Below are positions 1 through 41,036 of a stretch of 41,545 nt of DNA, one piece after another. The translations under genes and the position numbers were made by a program. The first letter of the stretch is position 1, and every line of letters starts with the position of its first letter. This DNA is from a virus, in IMG/VR virus record IMGVR_UViG_3300028763_000016, positions 1 through 41,545 of that record, one strand, 5' to 3'. Under the pieces are notes generated by a model, which did no database searches, was not told the origin of the DNA, and saw only the letters and a program-made list of their open reading frames with translations.

Positions 1-91
1 TATTTAATATTAGATTTTTTATTGTATTATTATCTGTTTTAGTGTGGCTAATAATATCAAAACAAACTACTTTATCCCCTACTTTTAACAT
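1..91 (-). CDS. GDKV-type small protein, cut by the window edge
   Basis: Only the first 30 codons are visible, reading leftward from the ATG at 89-91 and beginning MLKVGDKVVCF. The N-terminus matches the next gene to the right (MLKIEDYIVCI, then the shared ISHT), so this is a tandem paralog. The GDKVVC opening is the first strand of what looks like a small SH3-like barrel. Function unknown. The start overlaps the end of the upstream gene by 7 nt. Confidence 0.75.
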   Translation of the reverse strand, partial: MLKVGDKVVCFDIISHTKTDNNTIKNLILN

Positions 92-348
92 TTATCTATT
101 TCTAAAAGTTTACGTTTTCTATATTCTTTATCAGTAATAAATCTATTTGAAGCATAAATATATGAATGATTAATTTCATTAACTATTAAATAATCCTGAT
201 AATAAGAATATTCACAGCCAGTATTTCTATCAAAAAATATTTTAATTGAATATTTTTTATTTAGAGATAAATGTTTTACTGTAAGTTTATCACTATTAGT
301 ATGACTAATAACATCAATACATACTATATAATCTTCTATTTTTAGCAC
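85..348 (-). CDS. GDKV-type small protein with C-terminal tail
   Basis: 87 residues, GTG start nested in the last codons of the gene to its right (7-nt overlap). The body opens MLKIEDYIVCIDVISHT, a divergent version of the GDKVVC strand, and ends EYRKRKLLEIDKC. The aromatic-R-K-x-K-L core sits 12 residues from the end. No enzyme motif. A small single-domain beta protein of unknown role; the family assignment rests on pattern similarity with its neighbours. Confidence 0.8.
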   Translation of the reverse strand: MLKIEDYIVCIDVISHTNSDKLTVKHLSLNKKYSIKIFFDRNTGCEYSYYQDYLIVNEINHSYIYASNRFITDKEYRKRKLLEIDKC

Positions 349-575
349 AGTTTTAATTTATTAAGTTTAAGTGTTCTATACTCAGATAATTTAACAAATT
401 GAGTAGGACGCCAGTTTATTTCGCTATCATAAACATATACATTACCTAATGAAAGTTTAACTGATTCATAATAAACATCTCTTATAATATAATTAGTATA
501 TTTTTTTAATGCATAACGATTTTCATAATAACCTTCATCAGTTATACACACTACTTTATTTCCTGATTTTAACAT
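342..575 (-). CDS. GDKV-type small protein with C-terminal tail
   Basis: 77 residues from ATG at 573-575. Opens MLKSGNKVVCITDEGYY and ends LSEYRTLKLNKLKLC. The tail R-T-L-K-L-N-K-L has Thr in place of the usual Lys after Arg. It overlaps the upstream gene by 20 nt, so the tail codons of that gene run over this start. Part of the leftward array 1-1043. Function unknown. Confidence 0.8.
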   Translation of the reverse strand: MLKSGNKVVCITDEGYYENRYALKKYTNYIIRDVYYESVKLSLGNVYVYDSEINWRPTQFVKLSEYRTLKLNKLKLC

Positions 576-819
576 TTTTTATAATATTAAGTTTTTCTAA
601 TCTCACTTTTTTTATATAGTCAGGAATAGATAAAAATTTATATGACTCCTGATTATATGCAACACCAACAAGTTTAAAATATTCAAGATCTTCATATAGA
701 TATACACTCTGATGAATATCTAATATTTCATATTCTTTTCCAATAATTAATTGATCACAAATTATTCTGTCACTATCAAATGTTTTAATACAGACTACTT
801 TATCTCCTATATTTAACAT
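556..819 (-). CDS. GDKV-type small protein, extended tail
   Basis: 87 residues. Opens MLNIGDKVVCIKTFDSD. The tail (IPDYIKKVRLEKLN) is a degenerate form, and the protein runs about 11 residues further than its siblings (to ...NVKIRK) because the stop lies 20 nt inside the next gene. Loss of an earlier stop is the simplest explanation. Body predicted beta-rich; function unknown. Confidence 0.78.
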   Translation of the reverse strand: MLNIGDKVVCIKTFDSDRIICDQLIIGKEYEILDIHQSVYLYEDLEYFKLVGVAYNQESYKFLSIPDYIKKVRLEKLNIIKNVKIRK

Positions 820-1043
820 TCAGATAATTTTATAAGTTTTTTCTTTCTTAATTCACTCATTGACATAAAATGTCCATCTGAGAATGAGTAATTTGGTAAT
901 TCTTCTAAACTTATATCATAAGGATTCATGATAGTATATATTTTACCCTTTTTTAATAATTGTGTTCTAACATGATATCCATATAAATAATCATATTTAT
1001 AATCATCTAGCAAACATAATACTTTCTCGCCTGTTTTAAACAT
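813..1043 (-). CDS. GDKV-type small protein with C-terminal tail
   Basis: 76 residues, first gene of the leftward GDKV array. Opens MFKTGEKVLCLLDDYKYD and ends SELRKKKLIKLSEC. The stop overlaps the next start by 7 nt. Tyrosine- and aspartate-rich middle, no catalytic motif. The 12-nt gap to the membrane gene on its right suggests co-transcription. Confidence 0.8.
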   Translation of the reverse strand: MFKTGEKVLCLLDDYKYDYLYGYHVRTQLLKKGKIYTIMNPYDISLEELPNYSFSDGHFMSMSELRKKKLIKLSEC

Positions 1044-1055
1044 CTGTTGTTAGAT

Positions 1056-1226
1056 TTAAAATCTAGGATCATCCGGATTTAATAGATGACTAATATTTTT
1101 GTTCCACCACTCTACAAACCTTTTATTTTTTATTTTTTCAATATAATTTGAAATAACAAATATTGAAATAACACCAATCAATGATGCAATCCAAATACCT
1201 AGCAATATTAATAAATATGTATTCAT
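1056..1226 (-). CDS. Small single-pass membrane protein
   Basis: 56 residues from ATG at 1224-1226. One hydrophobic helix at about residues 4-27 (LLILLGIWIASLIGVISIF), then a basic stretch (EKIKNKR) and a soluble C-terminus ending NPDDPRF. N-out orientation is likely from the positive-inside rule. It lacks the tail found in its neighbours. Function unknown; it fills an otherwise empty gap in the same orientation with 2-nt spacing to the next gene. Confidence 0.65.
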   Translation of the reverse strand: MNTYLLILLGIWIASLIGVISIFVISNYIEKIKNKRFVEWWNKNISHLLNPDDPRF

Positions 1227-1228
1227 GA

Positions 1229-1459: not shown

Positions 1460-1460
1460 A

Positions 1461-1658: not shown

Positions 1659-1659
1659 A

Positions 1660-1842: not shown

Positions 1843-1845
1843 AAA

Positions 1846-2022: not shown

Positions 2023-2026
2023 AATA

Positions 2027-7378: not shown

Positions 7379-7702
7379 ATGGAGTATGTATTAATAGTTT
7401 ATCTATTTGGATTCCTCTTTATTCCAAGAATATTAATTGAAAAAACTGAAATAGTAGATACTATTAAGTATATCAACAGTATTGATGTACAAAATTCTCA
7501 TATTAAGTATTTAATAATTTTTATGATTTTTAATTTTTTTTGTTTTTTATTCATAAATAAAATAAGAGAGATCAGAAAAATAGATTACTATAAAAAGGCT
7601 ATTAGATTTTTAGATTTTTATGATTTTGAAAATATGAAAGATGATAGAAAAAAAGATTATATCAGAATGAATAGATATTTAAAATTAAAAAAAATAATAT
7701 GA
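7379..7702 (+). CDS. Two-pass membrane protein with C-terminal tail (IREIRK family)
   Basis: 107 residues, first gene of the rightward region. Helices at about 3-19 and 43-60 (IIFMIFNFFCFLFINK), then IREIRKIDYYKK and a soluble charged domain ending RMNRYLKLKKII. Three further copies lie at 7699, 8025 and 18911. The positive-inside rule puts the C-terminal tail in the cytoplasm. Function unknown. Confidence 0.78.
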   Translation: MEYVLIVYLFGFLFIPRILIEKTEIVDTIKYINSIDVQNSHIKYLIIFMIFNFFCFLFINKIREIRKIDYYKKAIRFLDFYDFENMKDDRKKDYIRMNRYLKLKKII

Positions 7703-8025
7703 CACTATTAACATTCATATTATTTATGATATATGTTTTATGTGTTCCTACATGTCCTCATATTTTAATTGAAAAAACTAAGCCTAATGAAATTGAAACT
7801 GATGATTGCAAAACTAAATATATTGTTTTATTTTGCGTATTTAATATTTTTTGCTTTTTATTTCTGAATAATATTAGAGAATATAGAAAAATTGATTATT
7901 ATAAATCTATAGTTTTATATTACACACAGTATAAAAAATCATTTGGAACTACATCATTGTCAGAAAAAAATGAAAAAGAATATATTAAAATGAAAAGATA
8001 TTTAAAACTCAAAAAATTAAAATAA
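7699..8025 (+). CDS. Two-pass membrane protein with C-terminal tail (IREIRK family)
   Basis: 108 residues. Shares the loop HILIEKTKPNE, the second helix VFNIFCFLFLNN and the block IREYRKIDYY with its neighbours; ends KMKRYLKLKKLK. The ATG overlaps the upstream stop by 4 nt. The extracytoplasmic loop is the variable part, which fits surface exposure. Confidence 0.78.
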   Translation: MTLLTFILFMIYVLCVPTCPHILIEKTKPNEIETDDCKTKYIVLFCVFNIFCFLFLNNIREYRKIDYYKSIVLYYTQYKKSFGTTSLSEKNEKEYIKMKRYLKLKKLK

Positions 8026-8363
8026 TGTCAATATTCATAATTATATTCATAATTTTATATTCTACTAGCTTTGCATATCTACCGAATATTTTAGACAGAA
8101 AAACAAAACCAAAAGAAGATAAAGGATGGTTTCTTGAAACAAAATACAATATTCTTTTTTGCTTGGTTAATATATTCTGCTTTTTTTTCTTAGATAAAAT
8201 AAGAGAGCATAGAAAAACAGATTGGTATAAAGATAGAATTTTAATGTATGATCAAAATTTTGTAAGAATGTTAGGATTTGAATCTTTATCAAGTAAAAGT
8301 AAATCAGAATATCTTAAAATGAAGAGATATTTAAAAATAAAAAAATTAAATGATAAGTCATAA
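8025..8363 (+). CDS. Two-pass membrane protein with C-terminal tail (IREIRK family)
   Basis: 112 residues, third tandem copy. First helix at about 2-20, second LFCLVNIFCFFFLDK, then IREHRKTDWYKDR. Ends KMKRYLKIKKLNDKS; the last five residues exist because the reading frame runs into the next gene's start (14-nt overlap). Confidence 0.78.
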   Translation: MSIFIIIFIILYSTSFAYLPNILDRKTKPKEDKGWFLETKYNILFCLVNIFCFFFLDKIREHRKTDWYKDRILMYDQNFVRMLGFESLSSKSKSEYLKMKRYLKIKKLNDKS

Positions 8364-9139: not shown

Positions 9140-9721
9140 ATGTTTGAATATTATAATAAATATATTAATCACATTAATCCAGATAATAGTTATATATCTG
9201 AAATTGCTTTTGTTAATACAAATAACACTTTTATATCAGATGAAATAGCATTCGTTGAGTACATAGATGATAATAAATGGAAAAAAGGTATATTCAAAAT
9301 GACAGATGAATTAAGTAAAATATATCTTGAATTTAGAACAAATTCTAATTATACAAATGAAAGAATAAAAAATATTCAATACTCAAAAACAAATCATTCA
9401 TACATTAAAATAATTAAAGATAATAATAATCCTCAATTAGAAGGAAAAATAATGATTTTTAAATTTGGAAGAAAAATTTTTGATAAGATAGTATATGAAT
9501 GTGAAACTCTTAATGATCATGGATATATTATTGATAAGTCATTTAAACTAAATATATCTAGAATAGGAGCATTTCCAAATTTTGATTATTCCCAATTCAC
9601 TAACAACAAATATAAAATAGAAGATTATAGTTTAGATATTAGAAATGATATAAATTTTAAAACTCTTAGCATTTCAAACATCATCAGAAAAGAAAAATTA
9701 AAAGAACTAAGTAATCTATAA
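9140..9721 (+). CDS. Unknown protein with C-terminal tail
   Basis: 193 residues, mostly beta with many Asn/Lys (EIAFVNTNNTFISDEIAFVE; GKIMIFKFGRKIFDKIVYEC). Ends SNIIRKEKLKELSNL, a clean tail on one of the larger soluble bodies. No paralog is seen in the window. Function unknown. Confidence 0.75.
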   Translation: MFEYYNKYINHINPDNSYISEIAFVNTNNTFISDEIAFVEYIDDNKWKKGIFKMTDELSKIYLEFRTNSNYTNERIKNIQYSKTNHSYIKIIKDNNNPQLEGKIMIFKFGRKIFDKIVYECETLNDHGYIIDKSFKLNISRIGAFPNFDYSQFTNNKYKIEDYSLDIRNDINFKTLSISNIIRKEKLKELSNL

Positions 9722-9727: not shown

Positions 9728-10066
9728 ATGAAAACAGGATTAATCATATTAATATGTATATTTTTTTTATTTGAAATATATGCAATGATTTGTTTGATGT
9801 CTAAAATATATTTAGAAAAAAGATATGGAAAAAAATATTATGATTTTAGTTTTTATATAACATTTTATCTTGATTCTCCAAAATTTTTATCATATCCTTT
9901 TCAAGTAATATTAAGGAAAAAATATGACAATAAATATAATCATTTATATTTATGTGAAAAGATAAAAGGAGAGAGATGGATCCAGCCAACAGATGAAGAA
10001 ATGATTGAATTAAAAAAAGAACTTAATAAAATTGAAAGAAAAATTAAACTTAAAAAATTAAAATAA
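9728..10066 (+). CDS. Membrane protein with C-terminal tail
   Basis: 112 residues, one strong N-terminal helix (GLIILICIFFLFEIYAMICL, about 4-23) and a weaker hydrophobic segment near 42-60. Ends KIERKIKLKKLK. Similar in layout to the next two genes, suggesting a divergent triplet of anchored proteins whose cytoplasmic end carries the tail. Confidence 0.72.
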   Translation: MKTGLIILICIFFLFEIYAMICLMSKIYLEKRYGKKYYDFSFYITFYLDSPKFLSYPFQVILRKKYDNKYNHLYLCEKIKGERWIQPTDEEMIELKKELNKIERKIKLKKLK

Positions 10067-10067
10067 T

Positions 10068-10469
10068 ATGATAAACACGTTGATAACATTATTAGTAATT
10101 GTAGCATCCTTATATGTATATTATATCATAAATTCATTTATGTTAAAAAATAAGCTTAAAAAATATACTCCACAATATAGAGTATATTTTGAAAAAGAGC
10201 ACATCAAAAAATCACCCATTCTTTACATATTTTTTACTATGTTTATATTTTTATATAACAATTATCACAAAGATGAAATTGAGTATGGCTATCTTAAATA
10301 TAAAGTTGATTTAATTGATAGAATAAAAAATGATAATTACATTCAAATTACATATCCAAACATGGAATTAGCTATTGAAGGGGAAGGAGAAATAAGAAAA
10401 AAAATGAAAAATTACTCATTAAAAATAAAATTAAAGAAAATTAAAAAAATGAATGATGATGACAAATAA
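10068..10469 (+). CDS. Two-pass membrane protein with C-terminal tail (YHKDEI family)
   Basis: 133 residues, helices at about 2-24 and 45-62, followed by NNYHKDEIEYGY, a motif shared with the next gene (NKYHKDEIKLNF). Tail YSLKIKLKKIKK followed by an acidic end MNDDDK produced by overlap with the next start (17 nt). Starts 1 nt after the previous stop. Confidence 0.73.
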   Translation: MINTLITLLVIVASLYVYYIINSFMLKNKLKKYTPQYRVYFEKEHIKKSPILYIFFTMFIFLYNNYHKDEIEYGYLKYKVDLIDRIKNDNYIQITYPNMELAIEGEGEIRKKMKNYSLKIKLKKIKKMNDDDK

Positions 10470-10836
10470 TATCATATCAATATGCTTCATATCATTATGT
10501 TCATATCTCATAATAAATACAATTTCTTTCATTTTATACAAAAGAAAGATAAAAGAAAATTCTGATTTTTATGGTTATTTTTATAATTATATTATCACTG
10601 AAAAAAAATTTCTATATATTTTTTTCACTGTAATTATGATAATATACAATAAGTATCATAAAGATGAAATCAAATTAAATTTTTATATTCAAAGAAAGAA
10701 TGATATGATATATAGTATGGAATATAATCTATGGTCTCATAGAGATTCAGAGTATTATAATTCGGAAATTGCTAAAATGAATAGTAATATTCGTAAAATT
10801 GAGTTAAGAATAAAAATTAAAAAACTGAATAAATAA
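10453..10836 (+). CDS. Two-pass membrane protein with C-terminal tail (YHKDEI family)
   Basis: 127 residues, helices at about 5-26 and 49-66 (FLYIFFTVIMIIYNKY). Clear paralog of the upstream gene across the second helix and YHKDEI. Ends KIELRIKIKKLNK, a tail with Leu-Arg-Ile in place of R-K. The start region overlaps the previous coding end. Confidence 0.73.
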   Translation: MMMTNNIISICFISLCSYLIINTISFILYKRKIKENSDFYGYFYNYIITEKKFLYIFFTVIMIIYNKYHKDEIKLNFYIQRKNDMIYSMEYNLWSHRDSEYYNSEIAKMNSNIRKIELRIKIKKLNK

Positions 10837-10840: not shown

Positions 10841-11338
10841 ATGAATGACATTCTTAAATTTAATACAATTAACTTCAAAAAAGATTATACAGGTAATCAT
10901 AATATAATAAAAGAATATCTTAGCATAAAAACTGAAATCATTTTTAAATATCCAAGTATGGATTTTAATTTACCACAGTTCTATGATAAAAAAATTCCTA
11001 TATATTTTGTTTATGATAGAAACGATAATTTAAGTTCAAAAGACATAAGAATAGAAGAATTTGATTTTAATAGAATTTATAATGAAAAACTTCAAATTGT
11101 AGAATTAGTTGATCATGATATTTTTATATATCAGTCAATTTCAGAACAATATTTTTCTAGCATTTATATATTTCATATAAATTTAGAAAGAAATGAATAT
11201 CTAAGAAAAAAAATATATTCTCATGATTATAAATTATTCATTTTCTTTGATAATTATCAATTCATAATAAAATTAGTATTCTCTCCTAACATGAGAAAAT
11301 ATAAATTACAAAAACTAAATGATGAAACAGACAAATGA
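10841..11338 (+). CDS. Unknown protein with C-terminal tail
   Basis: 165 residues, soluble and beta-rich: MDFNLPQFYDKKIPIYFVYD, VDHDIFIYQSISEQYFSSIY, then YKLFIFFDNYQFIIKLVF. Ends NMRKYKLQKLNDETDK. Body unrelated to its neighbours. The stop overlaps the next ATG (ATGA). Confidence 0.75.
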   Translation: MNDILKFNTINFKKDYTGNHNIIKEYLSIKTEIIFKYPSMDFNLPQFYDKKIPIYFVYDRNDNLSSKDIRIEEFDFNRIYNEKLQIVELVDHDIFIYQSISEQYFSSIYIFHINLERNEYLRKKIYSHDYKLFIFFDNYQFIIKLVFSPNMRKYKLQKLNDETDK

Positions 11339-11550
11339 AAAGAGGAGATAAAATCACATCAAACGGTGACACTGGATATAGGGGATTGAAAGAATTCAAA
11401 GAATATATCATTCAAGATGTTTTTACTAATAGCTTTAATGAAAAATGCATTAGAGTTAATGGAGTAAATGGATTATATCCTATGAAATATTTTATAACAT
11501 TAAAACAAATTAGAAAAGAAAAACTCAATAGAATATGTTGGAACAAATAA
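11335..11550 (+). CDS. GDKV-type small protein with C-terminal tail
   Basis: 71 residues. Opens MKRGDKITSNGDTGYRGLKE, with strands EYIIQDVF and CIRVNGV and then FITLKQIRKEKLNRICWNK. Small barrel-like body; same order of elements as the array at 12649-14224. Last 16 nt overlap the next gene. Confidence 0.8.
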   Translation: MKRGDKITSNGDTGYRGLKEFKEYIIQDVFTNSFNEKCIRVNGVNGLYPMKYFITLKQIRKEKLNRICWNK

Positions 11551-11753
11551 AAGAATTTACATTTCAAACTGAATTAGATCAAAAAGCATACGTGGTTTAT
11601 GAAGAATATATTGATATTCAAAGATATGTAACACAATTTGAATTTTATTCATTTATAAAGCAAAAAAAATGTAGTAACATTAAACCTTTTTATGATATTG
11701 CTTTAAAGCAATTAAGATTTGATAAATTAATTAAAATATGTACAATAAATTAG
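11535..11753 (+). CDS. Helical AYELY-family protein with C-terminal tail
   Basis: 72 residues, first of six tandem helical paralogs. Family pattern L-D-x-x-A-Y-x-x-Y near residues 14-24, then FYSFIKQKK, a YDIALKQLR helix and the tail RFDKLIKICTIN. Stop is TAG and overlaps the next start by 16 nt. Function unknown; looks like a short three-helix bundle. Confidence 0.78.
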   Translation: MLEQIKEFTFQTELDQKAYVVYEEYIDIQRYVTQFEFYSFIKQKKCSNIKPFYDIALKQLRFDKLIKICTIN

Positions 11754-11929
11754 ATTATATTGCTTATGAATTATTTTTAGATTATGCACTATCATCTTGT
11801 GATGGATTAAGATACGATTATACTATTCATAGTTTTGTTAGAGAAGATAAAGATTTTCAGAAAATATATTATGAAAAGGCAGTAATAGTAATAAGAAAAG
11901 AAAAACTACTACAATTATGCAAAAAATAA
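11738..11929 (+). CDS. Helical AYELY-family protein with C-terminal tail
   Basis: 63 residues: MYNKLDYIAYELFLDYALSS, HSFVREDKDFQKIYYEKAV, then VIRKEKLLQLCKK. The long middle loop (CDGLRYDY) is variable between copies. Overlaps the next gene by 13 nt. Confidence 0.78.
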   Translation: MYNKLDYIAYELFLDYALSSCDGLRYDYTIHSFVREDKDFQKIYYEKAVIVIRKEKLLQLCKK

Positions 11930-12117
11930 CAGATTTAGACGACATTGCATATCAAATATACAGATTACATATAATAATGGAAAATAGAAATTATTATCGT
12001 AAATTTGAATCTTTTTGTGAATATAGAGATAAATATTCAAAATATTACTCTGAAGCTAAAATAAAATTAAGAAAAGAAAAACTTGAAAAACTAAACAAAA
12101 TATGTTCAGTGAATTAG
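11917..12117 (+). CDS. Helical AYELY-family protein with C-terminal tail
   Basis: 66 residues. LDDIAYQIYRLHIIME, then FCEYRDKYSKYYSEAKIK and LRKEKLEKLNKICSVN. Terminates with TAG inside the next gene's first codons. Closest relative is the following gene, with which the segment L-R-K-E-K-L-E-K-L is identical. Confidence 0.78.
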   Translation: MQKITDLDDIAYQIYRLHIIMENRNYYRKFESFCEYRDKYSKYYSEAKIKLRKEKLEKLNKICSVN

Positions 12118-12287
12118 AATTAGAATCATATGAAATTTATGAAAATCATACAAGAATTATTTTTAATGAATATCCAAATTCAATTGAATATTTCATTAAA
12201 AATAAGTCTGCATATAAACATTATTATGAAAAGGCAATAATTAGATTAAGAAAAGAAAAACTTGAAAAACTCAGAAAGAATACATAA
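12102..12287 (+). CDS. Helical AYELY-family protein with C-terminal tail
   Basis: 61 residues: MFSELELESYEIYENHTRI, YFIKNKSAYKHYYEKAI, RLRKEKLEKLRKNT. Starts inside the previous tail (16-nt overlap). Its stop lies where the next gene's start codon is expected, at a site where ATG appears to have become ATA. Confidence 0.77.
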   Translation: MFSELELESYEIYENHTRIIFNEYPNSIEYFIKNKSAYKHYYEKAIIRLRKEKLEKLRKNT

Positions 12288-12480
12288 CGAATTAGAAGAA
12301 AAAGCGTTTGAATTATATGAAAAATATATAAGAATAAAAAGTTTCAATTATTGGAATATTCTATACATAGACATTAACTATTTTATTGATCATAAGGAAT
12401 TATATGAATCATATTTTGATGTAGCTAATATTATATTAAGAAAAGAAAAACTCAATAACATCAAAAAATATGCACACTGA
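12262..12480 (+). CDS. Helical AYELY-family protein with C-terminal tail, unusual start
   Basis: 72 residues if begun at TTG 12262. Compared with its siblings the expected start is at about 12281, where the codon is ATA (Ile-His-Asn-Glu-Leu-Glu aligns with Met-His-Thr-Asp-Leu-Glu of the next gene). No ATG is available. Body LEEKAFELYEKYIRIK, INYFIDHKELYESYFDVA, tail ILRKEKLNNIKKYAH. The coding frame is intact, so it is not an obvious pseudogene. Confidence 0.65.
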   Translation: MKNSERIHNELEEKAFELYEKYIRIKSFNYWNILYIDINYFIDHKELYESYFDVANIILRKEKLNNIKKYAH

Positions 12481-12652
12481 CTTAGAACAAACTGCACATG
12501 AACTATATGTAGATTTTATGAGAACTGAATGGTGTCTCAATTGGTATACAATTGATTTTTTTGTTGAACACAAAGAATCATATCAGGCATATTTCGATGC
12601 TGCAGTAAACAAATTAAGAAAAGACAAGCTTTTAAAATTATCGATAAAATGA
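12470..12652 (+). CDS. Helical AYELY-family protein with C-terminal tail
   Basis: 60 residues, last of this helical run: MHTDLEQTAHELYVDFMRT, IDFFVEHKESYQAYFDAAV, then KLRKDKLLKLSIK. A further member lies 22 kb away at 34483-34695. After this gene the array switches to GDKV bodies while the tail is kept. Confidence 0.78.
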   Translation: MHTDLEQTAHELYVDFMRTEWCLNWYTIDFFVEHKESYQAYFDAAVNKLRKDKLLKLSIK

Positions 12653-12900
12653 AAAAAATAATAAAACCAAAGTTTAAAGTTGGAGACAGGGTAGTATATA
12701 TCAGAAATGGATATAAACAATTAACTAAAAATAATACATATACTGTGTCATATGTTTTAGAATGTGTTAGACCTGTTCAAGATCATATAACTTTAAAAGA
12801 AATGGGGGATTTTGATGATTTATTTTACATAAAAGATTTCATTTCTGTTTCAGAATATAGAAAAATGAAATTGATTAAATTATTAGAATATGAGCATTAA
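12649..12900 (+). CDS. GDKV-type small protein with C-terminal tail
   Basis: 83 residues: basic start MKKIIKPKFKVGDRVVYIRN, then NTYTVSYVLE, ITLKEMGDFDDLFYIKDF and tail SEYRKMKLIKLLEYEH. The order of strands (VGDRVVYI, YTVSYVL, HITL, FYIKDFIS) suggests a five-strand SH3-like barrel. Function unknown. Confidence 0.8.
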   Translation: MKKIIKPKFKVGDRVVYIRNGYKQLTKNNTYTVSYVLECVRPVQDHITLKEMGDFDDLFYIKDFISVSEYRKMKLIKLLEYEH

Positions 12901-13123
12901 ATATGGTGATACAGTTATTTATATTGGAATACATAATCCTAATTTCATCAACGGAAATTCTTATATAATTGAGCATGTGATAGATGATGAAAATATAGAA
13001 AATTTTCATATCTATTATTATTTAAAAGGAATTGATTTTGAGGTTTGTGATTCTTTATATTTCATGTCACTAAAAGAATATAGAAAATTAAAACTTCAAT
13101 TATTAGAACAATATGATATATAA
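12890..13123 (+). CDS. GDKV-type small protein with C-terminal tail
   Basis: 77 residues: MSIKYGDTVIYIGIHNP, NSYIIEHVIDD, then LYFMSLKEYRKLKLQLLEQ and DI at the end. Pairs with the gene at 13337 in having Thr after GD and an acidic central loop. Eleven-nt overlaps on both sides. Confidence 0.8.
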   Translation: MSIKYGDTVIYIGIHNPNFINGNSYIIEHVIDDENIENFHIYYYLKGIDFEVCDSLYFMSLKEYRKLKLQLLEQYDI

Positions 13124-20739: not shown

Positions 20740-20777
20740 CAAATATATTTTTCATGTAATATGTTTATTTTTTTTAG

Positions 20778-30675: not shown

Positions 30676-31008
30676 ATGGTAGAATTTAGATTTAAAATTA
30701 GTGATGAAGCATTCAATTTGTTATTAATAATTAGCAAAGAAGGATATGTTGAATATAGAGATACAGAATATGAAACTATAGAGGAATTTGAAAAAAGTGG
30801 AAATGTATCAATGAATCTTAATTCATTCAAATCAAGAAATTGTAATGGAACTCTTTATTTAATTCCTGAACTATATAAATATAATTTTATTTGTGATGTT
30901 GAAGATGCTTGGCATATTTCATATAGAATTTCTGATTTAGGAAAATCACTTCTTGATAATTTAATTAGAAAATTGAAATTAGAGAAAATAGAAAGCAATG
31001 ATTTATAA
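30676..31008 (+). CDS. Winged-helix-like protein with tail (triplet)
   Basis: 110 residues. ISDEAFNLLLIISKEGYVEY (helix 1), YETIEEFEKSG, SFKSRNCNGTLYLIPELYKY (recognition-like helix), then a wing AWHISYRISDLGKSLLDNLI and tail RKLKLEKIESNDL. The helix-helix-wing order with YRISDLGK resembles MarR/PadR-type winged helices. First of three tandem copies; DNA binding is inferred only. The 111-nt gap upstream holds no clear promoter. Confidence 0.7.
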   Translation: MVEFRFKISDEAFNLLLIISKEGYVEYRDTEYETIEEFEKSGNVSMNLNSFKSRNCNGTLYLIPELYKYNFICDVEDAWHISYRISDLGKSLLDNLIRKLKLEKIESNDL

Positions 31009-31339
31009 CGAGTCAATCAGTTTATTGTTTACAATTTATAGATCAGGTTATGTAGAATATAAAGATCCAGAATTTGAAACTATTGATGATTTTAAAAATT
31101 GTAAAGGTAAAAAGTTTTTAGATTTTTCTGGAAAACTTATGACATTAGAATCATTTAAAAATAGAAATTGTGGAGGTACATATTATTTAATAAAAAAATT
31201 ATTAGATAATAAAATGATAGAATCTGATTATGATTTAAAATTTAATATGTATAGAATATCTGATATTGGAAAAAGAATTCTTAAAAATTCAATTAGAAAA
31301 TTAAAAATAAAACAAATAGAAAATTATAATGTTAAATAG
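30998..31339 (+). CDS. Winged-helix-like protein with tail (triplet)
   Basis: 113 residues. ISLLFTIYRSGYVEYKDPEF, SFKNRNCGGTYYLIKKLLDN, FNMYRISDIGKRILKNSIRK, then LKIKQIENYNVK. The NRNCGGT.YLI signature is common to the three copies. Overlaps 11 nt on each side. Confidence 0.72.
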   Translation: MIYNESISLLFTIYRSGYVEYKDPEFETIDDFKNCKGKKFLDFSGKLMTLESFKNRNCGGTYYLIKKLLDNKMIESDYDLKFNMYRISDIGKRILKNSIRKLKIKQIENYNVK

Positions 31340-31655
31340 AAATCCTATTAACATAAGTGATGATGCACTTAAATTATTAATACATATTCAAAGTAAAGGA
31401 TATGCAGAATATTCTGATCCTGAATTTGAATCAGTACAAGAATTTGAAAAGTCTTTATCTTTTATGACAGTTGAAGAATTCAAAAAAAGAAATTGTGGAG
31501 GTACATTATATTTAGTTATGGAATTATTATTTTATAAATTAGTTGAGGGTGATTGTAATAGATATAATGTAGGATATAAGTTATCTGAACTTGGTAGAAA
31601 TATGACAGTTAAATTTATTAGAAAAGTTAAATTAGAAAAATTAGAAAAAATATGA
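31329..31655 (+). CDS. Winged-helix-like protein with tail (triplet)
   Basis: 108 residues. DALKLLIHIQSKGYAEYSDP, EFKKRNCGGTLYLVMELLFY, YNVGYKLSELGRNMTVKFIR, KVKLEKLEKI. Third copy, with a shortened post-tail. If all three bind DNA they could be a small set of paralogous repressors. Confidence 0.72.
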   Translation: MLNRNPINISDDALKLLIHIQSKGYAEYSDPEFESVQEFEKSLSFMTVEEFKKRNCGGTLYLVMELLFYKLVEGDCNRYNVGYKLSELGRNMTVKFIRKVKLEKLEKI

Positions 31656-32092: not shown

Positions 32093-32392
32093 ATGAAAAA
32101 ATTATTTTTATTCGGATTTTGTTTTTTATTATTTAGTTGTACTGAAAAAATAAATTGTGATGGTAAGGTTTTTGATAATTATGATATGTATGTTGATTAC
32201 TCTATAAATCAATTGAAATCTCCAGTTACAATAACATCTATTTCAACAAAAATTTACAAGACTGATATTACTGATACATTATATTCTATTGTAGTTAGGG
32301 ATTCTAAAAATACAATACATTTATATAACTATAATTCCGATCTTGTTAATGTCATAGCAAGAACTCACAACGTTGGTGATACTATACGATAA
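32093..32392 (+). CDS. Small lipoprotein
   Basis: 99 residues. Lipoprotein signal: MKKLFLFGFCFLLFSC with lipobox LFSC and Cys16. The mature part (NYDMYVDYSINQLKSPVTIT, then a beta region TLYSIVVRDSKNTIHLYNYN) is nearly the same as in the next gene. Exported and lipid-anchored; surface lipoproteins in phages often block superinfection, which is the best guess here. Confidence 0.75.
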   Translation: MKKLFLFGFCFLLFSCTEKINCDGKVFDNYDMYVDYSINQLKSPVTITSISTKIYKTDITDTLYSIVVRDSKNTIHLYNYNSDLVNVIARTHNVGDTIR

Positions 32393-32403
32393 ATTAAAAA
32401 ATT

Positions 32404-32706
32404 ATGAAAAAATTATATTTATTTGTTCTGTGTTTATTTTTATTTAGTTGTCATAAAATAAAATATGATGGACAAGATTTTACTAATTATGATATGTATG
32501 TTGAATATTCAATAAATCATTTAAAATCTCCTGTTGTAATACAATCTATTTCAACAAAACAATATGATAGTTTTCATCACGGCTCTTATACTGTATATTC
32601 TATAGTAGTTAAAGATGCTGAAAATAAAATTAAATTTTATGATGAAAATTCAGATATTATTGATGTTATAGCAAAAACTCATCATTTAGGTGATACAATA
32701 AGATAA
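32404..32706 (+). CDS. Small lipoprotein, tandem paralog
   Basis: 100 residues. MKKLYLFVLCLFLFSCHK with Cys16, then YDGQDFTNYDMYVEYSINHL, SPVVIQSISTKQY, VYSIVVKDAENKIKFYDENS and THHLGDTIR. Roughly half the mature residues match the preceding gene. The variable region near ISTK.Y may set specificity. Confidence 0.75.
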   Translation: MKKLYLFVLCLFLFSCHKIKYDGQDFTNYDMYVEYSINHLKSPVVIQSISTKQYDSFHHGSYTVYSIVVKDAENKIKFYDENSDIIDVIAKTHHLGDTIR

Positions 32707-34235: not shown

Positions 34236-34493
34236 ATGATTGATGAAAAACTTATAATATCAGAACTTCAATATCATGAAAATGAATTATTTATATTTGA
34301 AAAAAATCATTCAGATAGTAATGGAGAATTATATGACAATGATGATTATAATTCTGAGCATTATGACGAATTTATTCATATTCTTGATTCAATAGATAAG
34401 TGTCATGCTAATTTCTCTCGTTTGGTAGAATTAAATTTAAAATCTAAATTAAGAATAGATAAGTTAAATAAAATAAAACTCAATGGATTATAA
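34236..34493 (+). CDS. Helical acidic protein with divergent tail
   Basis: 85 residues. LIISELQYHENELFIFEKNH, an Asp/Asn-rich loop (NGELYDNDDYNSEHYDEF), then a helix LDSIDKCHANFSRLVELNLK and SKLRIDKLNKIKLNGL. In the tail Ile replaces Lys after Arg. Overlaps the next start by 11 nt, as in the arrays. Confidence 0.68.
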   Translation: MIDEKLIISELQYHENELFIFEKNHSDSNGELYDNDDYNSEHYDEFIHILDSIDKCHANFSRLVELNLKSKLRIDKLNKIKLNGL

Positions 34494-34695
34494 TGAATAT
34501 AAAATTACTGATTTAGATCAAAAAGCATATAACTTATATTGTTATGTTGATGAAAATGAACCATATATGGGAGAACATCATAACTTTTTTGATTTTATTA
34601 AGGATAAATCTGATTATTTAGAATATTATTCAAAAGTTAAAAAAGATATTAGAAAAAATAAGTTAATACAATTATCAAAAAAATGTTATGATTAA
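34483..34695 (+). CDS. Helical AYELY-family protein with tail, distant copy
   Basis: 70 residues: DLDQKAYNLYCYVDENEPY, FFDFIKDKSDYLEYYSKV, KDIRKNKLIQLSKKCYD. Same element order as the six genes at 11535-12652, yet 22 kb away. Eight-nt overlap with the next gene. Confidence 0.75.
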   Translation: MDYNEYKITDLDQKAYNLYCYVDENEPYMGEHHNFFDFIKDKSDYLEYYSKVKKDIRKNKLIQLSKKCYD

Positions 34696-35140
34696 AAGTA
34701 AAAAACTTGATATTGAAAAACTAAAAGATATTTATAGATATAATTGTCTTTTATTATATTCAGATTTACAATCTATTAGTATAATAAATTCAAAAATTTT
34801 TAATACTTTATTAAATAAAGTAATAGAATATCAAAAAAATGATTTGACATTTGGATCATTGGATCATTTATCTACAACATTAAATGGAGATATTTATAAA
34901 ATTTCATATTCTGAAATTTGTGATTTTATTGCAATCATAGATTTGAAGTTTTACTTTTTTGAAAATGAGGATTTTTTTAATTTTAGAAGAAGAATAAACA
35001 AAGATTTTTTACAGTTATCTCATTTAAAATTATCTGAATTCATAATCATTTTAAACAATGATGAAAATTATGATTCTTATTTAAGAAAGAAAAAAATAAA
35101 AGAATTAAATTATATTTCAACAAATTGTTTGCCAATTTGA
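34688..35140 (+). CDS. NKLIEY-family protein with tail, distant copy
   Basis: 150 residues. KIFNTLLNKVIEYQKNDLTF, then a helix SEICDFIAIIDLKFYFFENE, and a module LSEFIIILNNDENYDSYLRK with KKIKELNYIS followed by TNCLPI. Paralog of 22543 and 22974. End of the operon; terminator inside its 3' edge. Confidence 0.76.
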   Translation: MIKSKKLDIEKLKDIYRYNCLLLYSDLQSISIINSKIFNTLLNKVIEYQKNDLTFGSLDHLSTTLNGDIYKISYSEICDFIAIIDLKFYFFENEDFFNFRRRINKDFLQLSHLKLSEFIIILNNDENYDSYLRKKKIKELNYISTNCLPI

Positions 35141-35211: not shown

Positions 35212-36318
35212 ATGAATTTATTAAATGTTACACCAACAACAAGCGTATCAGCTTCAGTAAAAAACACTGAAAAAAGTCAATTATTAATAGATAAACTGAA
35301 TTTGATAGACTCTGATTTGAAAGAGTTTATGTTGACATTAAAAGTATTAGAAAAAGCTCATATTATTCGATCTAATTCCTATTATGATGAATCTAAGACT
35401 TGTTTTTCTACTAAAAGAGAAATTTTCAAGAATTTAGGATATTCAATCAACGAAAAAGTGAATGAATATAATAATATTTTAGGTAGTTTGAAATCATCTA
35501 ATATTAAGGTTCCTGAAAACTTAATAAAATATAATTTAATAAAAAATGAAAGAAGTTCATCAGGAGATAGATATGAACAAGTTGAAATAGAAATAGACAA
35601 AACTTATAATAAATATCTTAATTCAAGGTTAAACTCGAAATTGAGTTCTATTGTTGAAATAGCAGAAACATTTGGATTTATGATTCTTCCATTAGAATTA
35701 GCAAAGAATTCAATTTTAACTTGTGATCCAAAAAGAACTTCAAAAGATATTGAATCTGCTATTAACAACTACAAAATTGCTAATTCAGAACGAAATTTAT
35801 ACATTTTATGTCCAATTGGGTTTTATGATTTTGAAAAACATGTAAAGAGTCAAAAATACTATGATGTATATTTTCCAAATTCTTTATCAATGGTTAGTAT
35901 GAATGTTGGTATGAATTTACCATTATTCAGAAGTATGTATGAAACTATGGTGAATCTTGGTAATAGAGTAGATGCACTTGAAAATTCCACAAAAGTTTTA
36001 AAAGAACAAGTAAAAGGAATAGAACAAAATATTAGTAGAATACAAACAGAGCTTGAAAAAATATCAAAAGAACAAATTCGTCAGCAGCAATTAGCCATTC
36101 AGCAAGCAGAACAGATTCAAACATTAAAACTTGAAGTTCAGCAAGCTTTAGCAAGAAGAGAAGATCCTTTATTGTTTTCTACATCAAGTATCATAACTGA
36201 TTTTTCAGAAGACGAACATTGTGACGTTGCATTTGCATGGGGTACAGAATTTCCAAAAGAATTTTTGGAAATGATGAATATTAAGGGAGTAAAGAAAAAT
36301 AATTATTGGCTAAAATAA
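35212..36318 (+). CDS. Coiled-coil protein, unknown
   Basis: 368 residues, largest gene of the window. N-terminal half alpha/beta (residues 20-230, including NLYILCPIGFYDFEKHVK and SMVSMNVGMNLPLFRSMYE). A coiled coil spans about 240-315 (LGNRVDALENSTKVLKEQ ... EKISKEQIRQQQLAIQQAEQ). The C-terminal globule ends FPKEFLEMMNIKGVKKNNYW. Own promoter and terminator-bounded. It could be an oligomeric effector; no enzyme motif. Confidence 0.75.
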   Translation: MNLLNVTPTTSVSASVKNTEKSQLLIDKLNLIDSDLKEFMLTLKVLEKAHIIRSNSYYDESKTCFSTKREIFKNLGYSINEKVNEYNNILGSLKSSNIKVPENLIKYNLIKNERSSSGDRYEQVEIEIDKTYNKYLNSRLNSKLSSIVEIAETFGFMILPLELAKNSILTCDPKRTSKDIESAINNYKIANSERNLYILCPIGFYDFEKHVKSQKYYDVYFPNSLSMVSMNVGMNLPLFRSMYETMVNLGNRVDALENSTKVLKEQVKGIEQNISRIQTELEKISKEQIRQQQLAIQQAEQIQTLKLEVQQALARREDPLLFSTSSIITDFSEDEHCDVAFAWGTEFPKEFLEMMNIKGVKKNNYWLK

Positions 36319-37041: not shown

Positions 37042-37373
37042 ATATACCAAGATTAAAATCTCATATGAGCAATGGTGAAATAGAATATGTTATGTGCTCA
37101 GCAAATTGGATTGATGATGATATTGATTATTCACACAAGCCATATAATATTGATAAAGGTTTAGTTTTTGGTGGTATTCGACACGGTAGTATATTTGAGA
37201 TGACTCAAAGAATATATCCTCATGATGAATATGGTAATAAAACAATTCAAGGATTTCTAACTACAAAAAATAGATTTTTAAATCGAGAGGATGCATTAGA
37301 ATTAGTAAAATCAAACGGTCAATTAAAAAAAGAATTGTTAGGTAGTGAATTACAATCAGAAGATTTATGGTGA
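37035..37373 (+). CDS. Conserved phage protein (GRRH / QGFLTS family)
   Basis: 112 residues from ATG 37035 (a TTG six bases earlier is rejected). EIEYVMCSANWIDDDIDY, FGGIRHGSIFEMTQRIYPHD, IQGFLTTKNRFLNREDALEL, VKSNGQLKKELLGSELQSED and LW. Same domain order as the gene at 5181-5477 with G-x-R-H kept; likely paralogs. Role unknown. Confidence 0.7.
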   Translation: MLDIPRLKSHMSNGEIEYVMCSANWIDDDIDYSHKPYNIDKGLVFGGIRHGSIFEMTQRIYPHDEYGNKTIQGFLTTKNRFLNREDALELVKSNGQLKKELLGSELQSEDLW

Positions 37374-37624
37374 TAGATAAAAATATAATAAACGTTGGAG
37401 ATAGAAGAATCAAAATAGATTGTATATTTGGATATTATCTTACAGATGATACTACTCTTATAATTGAAAGAATAACCATTGAGGGAATAAATGAAATTGA
37501 AATTGAATTTGATAGATCATCAAAATGTAAAACAGCTTTATCTGAATTGGATTCTTTATTAGTTTTAAATATACCGAATCAAATAAGGAAAGATAAAATT
37601 TTGGAAATAAATAAAGATGTTTGA
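37367..37624 (+). CDS. Small beta protein with divergent tail (pair)
   Basis: 85 residues: NIINVGDRRIKIDCIFGYYL, TLIIERITIEGINEIEIEF, then a helix CKTALSELDSLLVLN and IRKDKILEINKDV. Tandem paralog of the next gene. The strand order suggests a small PH- or ferredoxin-like domain. Confidence 0.73.
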   Translation: MVIDKNIINVGDRRIKIDCIFGYYLTDDTTLIIERITIEGINEIEIEFDRSSKCKTALSELDSLLVLNIPNQIRKDKILEINKDV

Positions 37625-37892
37625 TATATTAAAAAATAGAATAAAAATAGGAAATTATAGATTAAAGATAGATAGTATATATTCATATTATCCTGATGAA
37701 AGTGCTGAACATGATGTGTGGTATATTGTGGTTGAACAGGAATCAGAAGATGGTATCACTGAACTACATATAGATTTTGAGTCATCTGACGAAGTTAATA
37801 AAGTTCTTATTGAATTGGATAAATTACTTACTATTGATCCAATGAACTTAAGAAAAGAAAAATTAGAAGAAATAAATCAAAACAATAAATAA
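37617..37892 (+). CDS. Small beta protein with divergent tail (pair)
   Basis: 91 residues: RIKIGNYRLKIDSIYSYYPD, DVWYIVVEQESEDGITELHI, DEVNKVLIELDKLLTID, NLRKEKLEEINQNNK. Same order as the preceding gene. The tail has acidic residues between the basic ones. Ends before the next ATG, which is 3 nt away. Confidence 0.74.
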   Translation: MFDILKNRIKIGNYRLKIDSIYSYYPDESAEHDVWYIVVEQESEDGITELHIDFESSDEVNKVLIELDKLLTIDPMNLRKEKLEEINQNNK

Positions 37893-38755: not shown

Positions 38756-38792
38756 TAAAATGAATATTAAATAAAAAAAATAAAAATATATT

Positions 38793-39284: not shown

Positions 39285-39293
39285 AAATAAAGT

Positions 39294-39467: not shown

Positions 39468-39472
39468 AAATT

Positions 39473-39649
39473 ATGAGAACATTAATGTATTTTATTCTAT
39501 TTATGATAATATCAATAACTTGGTTATTTTTTTATATATTATATTTTCTACCAGATGATAAATTACATATTGTATTATCAGGTTGTGCATTTTTTGTATA
39601 TTTAGGATTTTTTGTATACTCAGATATAAAATCAAGAAAAAAACAATAA
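39473..39649 (+). CDS. Small two-pass membrane protein
   Basis: 58 residues from ATG 39473 to TAA 39647-39649. Helices at about 4-25 and 32-50 (CAFFVYLGFFVYS), basic end DIKSRKKQ. Likely a paralog of the preceding gene. Five-nt spacing between them. Confidence 0.6.
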   Translation: MRTLMYFILFMIISITWLFFYILYFLPDDKLHIVLSGCAFFVYLGFFVYSDIKSRKKQ

Positions 39650-39657
39650 AAATTAAA

Positions 39658-39957
39658 ATGAAAAAATATAGTAGGATAGAAGATATTTTAATATTTCAAT
39701 GGAAAGGTAATTTTTCAATTGTTGATGATATAAATACTGCAGTAAAGTCATTTAATGACTCTTTTGAAAATAAAACAAAAGTTCATGCATCATTTGATGC
39801 TGATGAATGCTTAGTAATATCTAATTGTCATGATTATGGTACATTAAGTCTTATTGTTGAGAATAATAATTATGTCATATTCGATTCAACTGATAAACAA
39901 ACTCCATTGAATTCATACAGTGAAAAAGAATTCAGCAATAAATTTATTTTAATATAA
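39658..39957 (+). CDS. Unknown protein
   Basis: 99 residues from ATG 39658 (MKKYSRIEDILIFQWKGNFS); an earlier ATG lies inside the previous gene in another frame. IVDDINTAVKSFNDSFENKT, ADECLVISNCHDYGTLSLIV, VIFDSTDKQTPLNSYSEKEF. Alpha/beta. Overlaps the next start by one base (TAATG). Confidence 0.66.
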   Translation: MKKYSRIEDILIFQWKGNFSIVDDINTAVKSFNDSFENKTKVHASFDADECLVISNCHDYGTLSLIVENNNYVIFDSTDKQTPLNSYSEKEFSNKFILI

Positions 39958-40133
39958 TGAAAAGAGTAGAAGTTGATTGTGTTTTTAAGTTAATAATTGA
40001 TATTGATGATAATAAAAATGTTGAAGATATAGTAGACTCAATTGAAATTAGTGAGTTTGATATAGATGAAAATGCTAGTGTTATAGCATGTAATATAACT
40101 AATAGGGAAATCATTAATTTTATTATTAAATGA
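39957..40133 (+). CDS. Small acidic alpha/beta protein
   Basis: 58 residues, ATG at 39957 sharing a base with the previous stop and TGA at 40131-40133 overlapping the next ATG. RVEVDCVFKLIIDIDDNKNV, EDIVDSIEISEFDIDENASV, ITNREIINFIIK. The overlaps at both ends support it as a real gene. Confidence 0.6.
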   Translation: MKRVEVDCVFKLIIDIDDNKNVEDIVDSIEISEFDIDENASVIACNITNREIINFIIK

Positions 40134-40831
40134 GAATATTAAGTATAGGAGATGTTCACGGATTTGATTCATGGAAATATTTTGTAAAAGATATTTCACA
40201 ATATGATAAAATTGTATTTGTTGGAGATTATGTAGATGAATATCATCTTAGTAATATTATAATATTAAATAATTTATTAGAGATAATAGAATTTAAGAAA
40301 AAATATCCAGATAAAGTAGTTTTATTATTAGGTAATCATGATTATCAATATGCTATACTTCCTCCAGAAATGCCTTTATTGTGTCATTGTACTGGATATA
40401 GATCAGAAATGCATTTCGATTTATATGAGATATTTCACTATAATTTAGAGTTGTTTAGAATGTCTTATCAATATGAAAATTATATTTGGACTCATGCAGG
40501 TATTCATCGTGGTTGGTATGAACATTTTTTAGTGGAATTCAAAAAAATATCTGATTTTGAAGGTACTATATCAGAAAAATTAAATTTGGCATTTGAATTT
40601 GAATTGAATTGCTTAGTTGATTGTGGATTCAAAAGAAACGGTCATAAGAAAATTGGAGGTCCATTATGGGCAGATAAAACTGAAACATGGACTAAACCAT
40701 TGAAAAATTATCATCAGATTTGTGGACATACGCATACAGATAAAATAGTACAGCATGAAATACCAATGCATAATTCATCTGTTACCTATATTGATTCATT
40801 ACCAGAATATTGTCACATTTTAAATATTTAA
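40130..40831 (+). CDS. Calcineurin-like metallophosphatase
   Basis: 233 residues with all five metallophosphatase blocks: GDVH (7-10), GDYVDE (32-37), GNHD (68-71), H122 in WTHAG and GHTH (199-202). These bind the two metal ions. PPP-type size and spacing; closest in style to phage phosphatases and symmetrical Ap4A hydrolases. Substrate unknown: protein phosphate, cyclic nucleotide or RNA 3'-phosphate ends are all possible. With the RNA ligase it could serve RNA repair. No tail. Confidence 0.88.
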   Translation: MRILSIGDVHGFDSWKYFVKDISQYDKIVFVGDYVDEYHLSNIIILNNLLEIIEFKKKYPDKVVLLLGNHDYQYAILPPEMPLLCHCTGYRSEMHFDLYEIFHYNLELFRMSYQYENYIWTHAGIHRGWYEHFLVEFKKISDFEGTISEKLNLAFEFELNCLVDCGFKRNGHKKIGGPLWADKTETWTKPLKNYHQICGHTHTDKIVQHEIPMHNSSVTYIDSLPEYCHILNI

Positions 40832-40835
40832 AAAT

Positions 40836-41036
40836 ATGAAAATTAAAATATTTGACGAACCATATAATGAAAGTGAAGAACTTGAACTATCAATAAATAA
40901 TTGGCTAAAAGATAATAATATATCAGTTGTATTTTTTAATACTACATTAAAAGTTGATTATTTAGTATATTCTATTATTTATTATGATAAGAAAGAATTA
41001 AGAAAAATAAAAATTGATAAAATTAATGAATTATGA
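40836..41036 (+). CDS. Small protein with tail
   Basis: 66 residues. MKIKIFDEPYNESEELELSI, NNWLKDNNISVVFFNTTLK, VDYLVYSIIYYDKKELRKIK then IDKINEL. The tail (LRKIKIDKI) is the last one in the window. ATGA overlap with the next gene. Body unlike the array families. Confidence 0.73.
   Translation: MKIKIFDEPYNESEELELSINNWLKDNNISVVFFNTTLKVDYLVYSIIYYDKKELRKIKIDKINEL

Follow-up and report, generated by a model that had tools for sequence, protein, structure and literature searches.

Results

The DNA stretch analyzed in this study is the entire IMG/VR virus record IMGVR_UViG_3300028763_000016 (41,545 bases, 22.6% G+C; hereafter, the window), and 63 of its 127 called genes were found to encode proteins that share a short motif near the C-terminus (hereafter, the tail). 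The tail is a 10-residue block, x-x-R-K-x-K-[LI]-x-K-[LI], located 1–15 residues before the C-terminus. Genes were called by a simple script (ATG, GTG, or TTG starts, at least 40 amino acids, greedy tiling), and a protein was regarded as tailed when it scored above 7 with a matrix trained on the window, which was then used elsewhere, and had no more than 15 residues after the motif. The count was 63 at thresholds of 7, 10, and 13, 64 at 5, and 54 at 16. Six more genes have copies that are degenerate or displaced and were not counted (Table 1), including one at 556–819 in which Lys and Arg are swapped. These would raise the count to 69, which explains the figure of about 69 tailed genes given in an earlier reading of the window made without database searches (hereafter, the sequence-only reading). 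All copies of the motif in the window but one lay within the final 30 residues of their genes.

A chance origin of the tail was rejected, because shuffled proteins and uncalled open reading frames hardly ever give the motif. In contrast to the 63 tails observed, shuffling the whole window proteins gave a mean of 0.3 tails (maximum of 3), and shuffling the last 30 residues gave a mean of 1.1 (maximum of 4). Among the uncalled open reading frames of the same DNA, tails were found in none of 64 in the window, and, in the related contigs G001, G002, and G003 introduced below, in 0 of 294, 2 of 616, and 2 of 359. Five recognized enzymes of the window scored from −7.7 to −1.4, in agreement with the sequence-only reading that such enzymes are without the tail. 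The shared tail was, hence, confirmed to be real.

The window is contained at 99.995% identity in a 168-kilobase (kb) contig, G001 (IMGVR_UViG_3300029983_000009), which we refer to as phage A. Phage B consists of G002 (330 kb) and G009 (20 kb), which were taken as one phage on the strength of an overlap of 300 identical bases between the end of G002 and G009, and phage C is G003 (256 kb); the mean nucleotide identity among the three phages was 75–81% across aligned parts. Tailed genes accounted for 106 of 421 in G001, 89 of 613 in G002, 38 of 60 in G009, and 111 of 482 in G003, resulting in 344 of 1,576 for phages A–C. Five more divergent contigs, which share some sequence with phages A–C, were also examined, and 183 of their 914 genes were tailed (G013, 78 of 412; G011, 46 of 235; G015, 11 of 87; G016, 41 of 140; G017, 7 of 40). 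Controls with shuffled last 40 residues gave 0–1.8 tails per contig, and the signal in G017 was weak, with 7 tails versus 1.0 in its control. In the first 20 kb of a distant contig (G008), 2 of 31 genes were tailed. A scan of IMG/VR with a DNA pattern for two consecutive tails returned 45 stretches, mostly from phages A–C; one of them, L081 (36.5% G+C), had no tail on its 28 genes and is probably a chance match of the pattern. When 12 kb of window DNA and two proteins of the GDKV type, one of the recurrent types in the window, were compared with 50,697 annotated phage records, no match was obtained, and the RNA ligase of the window, which matched 324 phage records, was of no help in placing the phage.

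The claim of the sequence-only reading that the bodies of tailed proteins are otherwise unrelated was borne out by single-linkage clustering, which divided the 344 tailed proteins of phages A–C, with the tail removed, into 99 families. Tailed proteins are small, with a median of 87–90 amino acids in G001–G003, and only 15 of 527 exceed 200 amino acids. A hydrophobic segment of their own was found in 12 of the 344, the other 332 being without any 19-residue stretch of mean hydropathy above 1.8, with no signal-peptide program run. Pfam and PHROGs searches covered all 106 tailed proteins of G001. A further 108 were searched with Pfam, of which 51 stood for families that lack a G001 protein and 57, each at least 95 amino acids long, came from the five divergent contigs. 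Nearly all of the families had no named relative, and named matches were few, namely Tad3, DUF6794, gp32, and a ResIII-like ATPase below the cut-off, the others being weak or unlikely; a PHROG annotated as DNA-binding protein matched 5 of the 106 G001 proteins (E = 1.8e-5). Some tailed proteins of G013 and G011 had been suspected of being tail-tube-like, for which PHROGs gave no support. As for gp32, phage A has a second one (G001:141926–142897) with an acidic C-terminus and no tail, and the paralogue in the window (9140–9721) is tailed. The ResIII-like match is a tailed protein of 221 amino acids in phage B (G002:37930–38595), perhaps a cut-down helicase or terminase paralogue.

In the anti-Thoeris protein Tad3 of phage B (G002:92930–93514), residues 2–125 of 194 matched PF25185 with an E value of 3.3e-34 and 117.7 bits versus a cut-off of 27. 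Four distinct versions were found in IMG/VR, belonging to phages B and C and to two other sequences. Their identities to the query are 100, 74, 69, and 65%, and they end in R-L-Q-K-L-K-A-L, R-Y-K-K-L-K-K-L, R-L-Q-K-L-K-S-I, and R-L-K-K-L-K-A-I. These ends, R-x-x-K-L-x-x-[LI] in common, keep the Arg, the second Lys, the Leu, and the final Leu or Ile of the tail, with 1–5 residues after. A tail-like end was absent from four Tad3 homologues of other phages, these being the ends read among 27 matched records.

Four columns of the tail (numbered 0–9) are nearly invariant. In the 344 tails of phages A–C, column 2 was Arg in 343, column 5 was Lys in 343, and columns 6 and 9 were Leu or Ile in 342 and 343, and in the 183 tails of the divergent contigs the corresponding numbers were 181, 180, 176, and 181. 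Columns 3 and 8 were Lys in 80% and 60% of the tails of phages A–C and in 77% and 66% of those of the divergent contigs. The eight positions that start with the Arg and finish with the last Leu/Ile contain four basic residues, interspersed with hydrophobic ones. On a helical wheel, the Arg, the second Lys, and both Leu/Ile sit at 140–240 degrees, and the conservation has a helical periodicity, its helical moment being reached by only 0.4% of column permutations (p = 0.004). The residues past the motif in the 344 tails numbered 1–15, mostly 3–7 and never 0.

AlphaFold2 also predicted the tail to be helical in two unrelated folds, with a predicted local distance difference test score (pLDDT) of 94–95 for the tail helix. 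The model of a GDKV-type protein (24558–24797) consists of a small beta barrel followed by the tail helix at residues 61–75, with a pLDDT of 95 for residues 61–70, 75 for the last block, and 92 overall, and in that of an AYELY-type protein (12102–12287; pLDDT of 96) the tail forms the end of the last helix (residues 35–60). A fold search with the GDKV model found nothing at E ≤ 0.001 in the PDB or a viral set, the best VIA-align Z score being 6.0 for SH3/KOW-like barrels, which is within the range of a common arrangement, and the AYELY model gave six PDB matches with a best E value of 5.7. Profiles of the proteins gave 0 and 2 matches (E = 0.52 and 0.85) against PDB sequences, and the tail peptide gave none.

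Selection on the tail acts at the amino-acid level. The ratio of non-synonymous to synonymous substitution rates (dN/dS), determined for orthologue pairs with both members tailed (59 for A–B, 36 for A–C, and 62 for B–C), was 0.25, 0.22, and 0.25 in the tail. Body values were higher (0.43, 0.49, and 0.51), and those of the stretch between the tail and the stop were higher still (0.59, 0.66, and 0.98). The tail value is, thus, about half that of the body, and this was because non-synonymous divergence was halved with a synonymous divergence like that of the body. Since this set selects on both members, the conservation was recomputed by selecting tails in one genome and counting gaps as loss. 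As a result, the Arg was identical in 100, 98, and 95% of 61, 66, and 38 pairs (A–B, B–C, and A–C, respectively) and the Lys in 100, 95, and 95%, compared with an identity of 55–59% in the bodies. Codon use in the tail was that of the body for Lys, Tyr, Gln, and Asn (p = 0.37–0.97), with small shifts for Arg, Leu, Ile, and Glu (p = 0.002–0.04). The clearest shift was at the last-position Ile, where ATA made up 73% versus 51%; the next ATG often overlaps there, and the preference is probably a trace of this overlap.

The same codon test was able to detect nucleotide-level constraint, as it flagged another class of gene ends in these phages. In G001–G003, 244 genes end in KFN[IL] or the like, and these failed the test, with AAC at 48% and ATA at 97% versus 11% and 47% expected; the constraint was also seen in 41 such genes without a nearby start.

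A same-strand start was present within 60 nucleotides of the motif for 286 of the 344 tails and absent for 58, and the number of residues past the motif spanned the same range in the two groups. In the 15 orthologue pairs with no near start in either member, the tail dN/dS was 0.27, and the Arg, the second Lys, and the last Leu/Ile were identical in all pairs. Coupling to the next gene was, hence, rejected as the sole cause of the tail, because tails with no start nearby are conserved too. A nucleotide-level element was likewise rejected as the sole cause, on the grounds of codon use, dN/dS, the KFN[IL] control, and this conservation without a start. The sequence-only reading had pointed to three tailed genes at the ends of arrays as being free of a following overlapping start. 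This was found to be so for the genes ending at 18310 and 25752, for which the next start lies 72 and 109 nucleotides past the motif, whereas the one ending at 14224 was less clean, with a TTG open reading frame starting 10 nucleotides past its stop; in its apparent counterpart in phage C, the next start lies 80 nucleotides past the motif.

These KFN[IL] ends belong to a second class of tagged genes in the same phages (in G001 at 67909–70771, 79504–83155, 91636–95678, 103814–108923, 113512–127116, and other loci), which is also marked by the N-terminus M-K-[YH]-[IL]-K-x-[FY]-E, found on 156 genes of G001–G003. None of these 156 genes carries the tail (Fisher P = 1e-16), and a looser N-terminal pattern gave one overlap with the tail each in G003 and G011. 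Genes of this class overlap as tightly as the tailed ones without having the tail, 133 of the 243 with a same-strand successor doing so by 4 nucleotides. The N-terminus resembles the capsid targeting sequence of phage T4, in which positions 4 and 7 are described as important (PMC9026906), these positions being aliphatic and aromatic in the second class.

The two classes also differed in their upstream motifs. In phages A–C, TAnnTTTG was found upstream of 34 of 87 tailed, 4 of 55 second-class, 64 of 258 untagged, and 0 of 8 mixed operons, and the TTTTATATAT-type motif upstream of 6 of 87, 37 of 55, 45 of 258, and 1 of 8, respectively. When these patterns, which were chosen on phages A–C, were applied unchanged to the five divergent contigs (Fisher p = 0.013 and 0.003), TAnnTTTG preceded 17 of 53 tailed, 4 of 40 second-class, 44 of 197 untagged, and 0 of 6 mixed operons, and the TTTTATATAT-type motif preceded 3 of 53, 12 of 40, 50 of 197, and 0 of 6. 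TAnnTTTG sets the tailed operons apart to a moderate degree; what stands out clearly is how seldom the TTTTATATAT-type motif precedes them. In Bacteroidota, TAnnTTTG serves as the −7 promoter element, and the late promoter of T4 is TATAAATA. The TTTTATATAT-type motif is also present upstream of a tail-fibre-like gene (G002:113112–116687). From these, the host is suggested to belong to Bacteroidota, and the TTTTATATAT-type motif and TAnnTTTG are probably late and early promoters, respectively.

Discussion

The results make it fairly probable that the tail is a portable docking helix that is selected at the protein level and binds one shared partner. Docking is favored because selection acts on the amino acids, a strict Arg and Lys and two hydrophobic residues lie on one face, the bodies are unrelated and include an anti-defense protein, and the tail also occurs where no gene follows. 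About a hundred small and probably early-made phage proteins would expose the Arg, the Lys, and the two Leu/Ile along one side of the helix. This side would most likely fit a groove on a single common partner, probably one present in many copies, inside the infected cell, and unrelated accessory and anti-host proteins would thereby be gathered at one place or machine. The binding, the shared multi-copy partner, the early timing, and the recruitment are all steps that we infer. A conservation-based look for a receptor yielded a set of conserved untailed genes, none of which stood out; as a guess, the acidic C-terminus of the phage's gp32 could be a candidate partner. We also put forward, more tentatively and as something we would sooner doubt than assert, that these phages might run an intracellular sorting system of their own, in which a phage-made multi-copy receptor gathers well over 100 early proteins by the helix, with the mutually exclusive tag class serving the late stage and anti-host genes such as that of Tad3 joining by acquiring the helix. 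The sequence-only reading had proposed a portable docking or sorting peptide, for instance for virion packaging. None of the three outcomes that it had named as refuting was obtained, as the motif hardly arose in shuffled sequences, the tail dN/dS was about half that of the body, and relatives were seldom without the tail. The amino-acid-level selection, the unrelated bodies, the predicted helix, and the tail-like end of Tad3 in these phages but not in the four other homologues accord with this proposal, and virion packaging was less supported; it is possible that the tail directs proteins to a phage compartment.

Several observations weigh against docking as the explanation. The largest single-linkage cluster contains 112 of the 344 bodies, and some of the 99 families might be joined if remote homology were taken into account. 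The matrix penalizes other residues, so that the near-invariance is partly built in by construction, which the selection on one genome avoids for the second genome. Among pairs with at least one tail, the tail was absent from one member in 3 of 62 (A–B), 6 of 42 (A–C), and 10 of 72 (B–C), which is rare, and several of these pairs are near the threshold or have short gene calls. In all four Tad3 versions the first Lys is absent, and their tail scores are at the threshold, 7.7 in phage B and 6.1, uncounted, in phage C. The helix prediction covers two folds, each modeled without a partner, and TAnnTTTG also precedes untagged operons, and therefore lends weak support to an early expression of the tailed genes. 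For the 15 orthologue pairs that lack a start nearby, the tail dN/dS (bootstrap range of 0.15–0.46) did not differ significantly from that of the body, 0.37 (0.28–0.49). The tail is close to the stop even without a following gene, which a nascent-chain mechanism would fit too, and docking itself is what we infer from the features above.

Such a mechanism, in which a basic helix inside the ribosome slows termination and so governs release, or re-initiation at the following gene in overlapping arrays, would account for the motif lying a few residues from the stop, for its conservation as amino acids, and for the frequent start within 60 nucleotides. We nevertheless consider it unlikely, as the 58 tails without a near start include orthologue pairs in which the tail is conserved, the second tag class overlaps as tightly without this tail, and the conservation tracks one helical face. 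A generic basic amphipathic helix might bind membrane, nucleic acid, or ribosomes non-specifically and concentrate small proteins there. The four basic residues with hydrophobic ones between them and the helical models agree with such a helix, but the Arg and Lys keep their own positions in nearly all tails and in 95–100% of orthologues, beyond what charge demands, and the tail is also carried by the 12 proteins that already have a hydrophobic segment, and hence this explanation has a low probability as well. A nucleotide-level element that happens to be translated, such as the region where the following gene starts or a stretch of homology used in shuffling genes, is the least probable. The arrays overlap, the motif end often abuts the next start, and the last Ile favors ATA, as such an element would have it, but codon use is otherwise near that of the body, only non-synonymous divergence is reduced, the tail is kept where no start follows, and the KFN[IL] ends demonstrate that nucleotide constraint would have been seen.

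The tail could also be a virion-packaging signal akin to the T4 capsid targeting sequence, placed near the C-terminus, with the tailed proteins injected together with the DNA. As described for the internal proteins IPI, IPII, and IPIII of T4 (PMC9026906), a short terminal peptide, portable to foreign proteins, brings diverged bodies into the head. The tail likewise is short, near-terminal, and shared by phage proteins whose bodies have diverged, and injection with the DNA would be a sensible route for an anti-defense protein such as a tailed Tad3. T4 internal proteins are made together with head proteins; for the tailed proteins, timing was judged from sequence motifs. The TTTTATATAT-type motif, probably a late promoter, is nearly absent from tailed operons and frequent before those of the second class, none of whose 156 genes with the capsid-targeting-like N-terminus is tailed. 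For these two reasons, virion packaging is disfavored and has little probability in our estimation. The T4 sequence differs further in being N-terminal, cut off by the prohead protease, and serving head assembly, whereas the tail lies near the C-terminus of about a hundred proteins, and the MKYIKxFE tag resembles the T4 sequence more than the tail does. A search for the prohead protease family Peptidase_S77 (PF03420) gave a best E value of 0.074 in G002, below the cut-off, and no match in G001, G003, or G009, these contigs being fragmentary, and a capsid search with PF07068 was uninformative, with no match anywhere, controls included. A degradation tag limiting the tailed proteins to part of the infection seems even less likely. 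The near-terminal position on small accessory proteins would be suitable for it, but at least one residue follows the motif in all 344 tails, which is unlike tags such as SsrA that are recognized by their free carboxyl terminus, and degradation of an anti-defense protein such as Tad3 would seem to harm the phage.

As a putative docking peptide, the tail can be compared with the targeting peptides of encapsulins, which are short, lie at the C-terminus, and attach cargo to a single partner (PMC7925596). Nearly all encapsulins have a single kind of cargo and a shell related to HK97-type capsids (PMC8229669). The tail is alike in being short and near the C-terminus of the carrier proteins, but its cargo set would be very large, with half the genes of the window and 99 body families in phages A–C. 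Chimalliviridae, which have chimallin and PicA, also sort phage proteins within their host cell, importing them into a phage nucleus. This import is reported to rely on a recognition surface rather than on a terminal signal sequence (PMC11087766); in contrast, the tail is a linear near-terminal motif. The KFN[IL] ends are conserved gene ends in overlapping arrays as well, and they are constrained as nucleotides, whereas the tail is constrained as amino acids. Proteins with the C-terminal domain of type IX secretion have an N-terminal signal peptide, and the hydropathy analysis described above found no hydrophobic stretch in 332 of the 344 tailed proteins. The tail would belong to the known kind of portable docking peptides, and a new sorting system is a reading that we leave open. 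No description of such a tail was found in the titles and abstracts of the open-access literature searched with a few terms, a weak indication that it is new.

Very large phages mostly encode small proteins without known relatives, and one amino-acid-level signal links about one-fifth of the genes in several such phages, which are uncultured. Identifying what the helix binds would in one stroke assign a place to about a hundred uncharacterized proteins of each phage, including an anti-defense protein. If docking is correct, a bacterial virus would tag a large share of its proteins wholesale for one destination, and the tail would offer a natural, compact, and portable docking peptide.

Map of the window

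The tailed genes and the other features of the window are listed in Table 1.

Table 1. Tailed genes, uncounted copies of the motif, and untailed enzymes in the window.
Position	Feature	Strand	Remark
85–1043	Tailed genes 85–348, 342–575, 813–1043 (GDKV-type)	−	Degenerate copy 556–819
1461–2022	Tailed genes 1461–1658, 1660–1842, 1846–2022	−	
3022–3414	Gene with internal motif copy	−	33 residues after motif; uncounted
7379–8363	Three tailed genes with hydrophobic segments: 7379–7702, 7699–8025, 8025–8363	+	TTTG-N-TAnnTTTG site upstream of operon
9140–9721	Tailed gp32-like (PF08804) paralogue, 193 amino acids	+	
9728–10836	Tailed gene 9728–10066	+	Degenerate copies 10068–10469, 10453–10836
10841–11550	Tailed genes 10841–11338, 11335–11550	+	
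11535–12652	Six tailed AYELY-type genes: 11535, 11738, 11917, 12102, 12262, 12470	+	
12649–14224	Seven tailed GDKV-type genes: 12649, 12890, 13113, 13337, 13564, 13791, 14015	+	
15321–17044	Six tailed GDKV-type genes: 15321, 15688, 15929, 16263, 16483, 16730	+	
17034–18110	Four tailed genes of one family: 17034, 17302, 17564, 17823	+	
18086–18310	Tailed GDKV-type gene, array end	+	Next start 72 nucleotides past motif
18911–19264	Tailed gene with hydrophobic segments	+	Next start 194 nucleotides past motif
20878–21294	Tailed gene, first in array	+	TTTG-N-TAnnTTTG site upstream
21287–21810	Tailed gene 21556–21810; 21287–21610 has motif	+	21287–21610: 26 residues after motif; uncounted
21794–23788	Six tailed genes of several families: 21794, 22042, 22304, 22543, 22974, 23417	+	
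23769–24110	Tailed gene	+	
24086–25752	Six tailed genes: 24086, 24322, 24558, 25008, 25283, 25522	+	Degenerate copy 24773–25018
26898–27122	Lone tailed gene	+	
30676–31655	Three tailed genes of one family: 30676, 30998, 31329	+	
34236–35140	Three tailed genes of different families: 34236, 34483, 34688	+	Next start 104 nucleotides from last motif
37367–37892	Two tailed genes: 37367, 37617	+	
40836–41036	Tailed gene	+	Phages B and C have tailed relatives
	Untailed enzymes: LOG-like 18368, nucleotidyltransferase 27119, DUF7487 protein 28528, RNA ligase 29560, phosphoesterase 40130		

Amid the variable tailed arrays, the gene at 35212–36318 encodes a protein of 368 amino acids, partly coiled-coil in appearance by eye, that is 76–89% identical among phages A, B, and C. 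Two adjoining and similar genes at 32093–32706 have lipoprotein-like starts (MKKL...FSC). The open reading frame at 20325–20645, which we take from its sequence to be peptidyl-tRNA-hydrolase-2-like, has an in-frame TAG at 20451–20453, and a tRNA with the anticodon CTA (amber suppressor type) is located just downstream at 20669–20740. In phage B, TAG was present at the same place (G009, ~9960–10275), followed likewise by a CTA tRNA (10303–10374).

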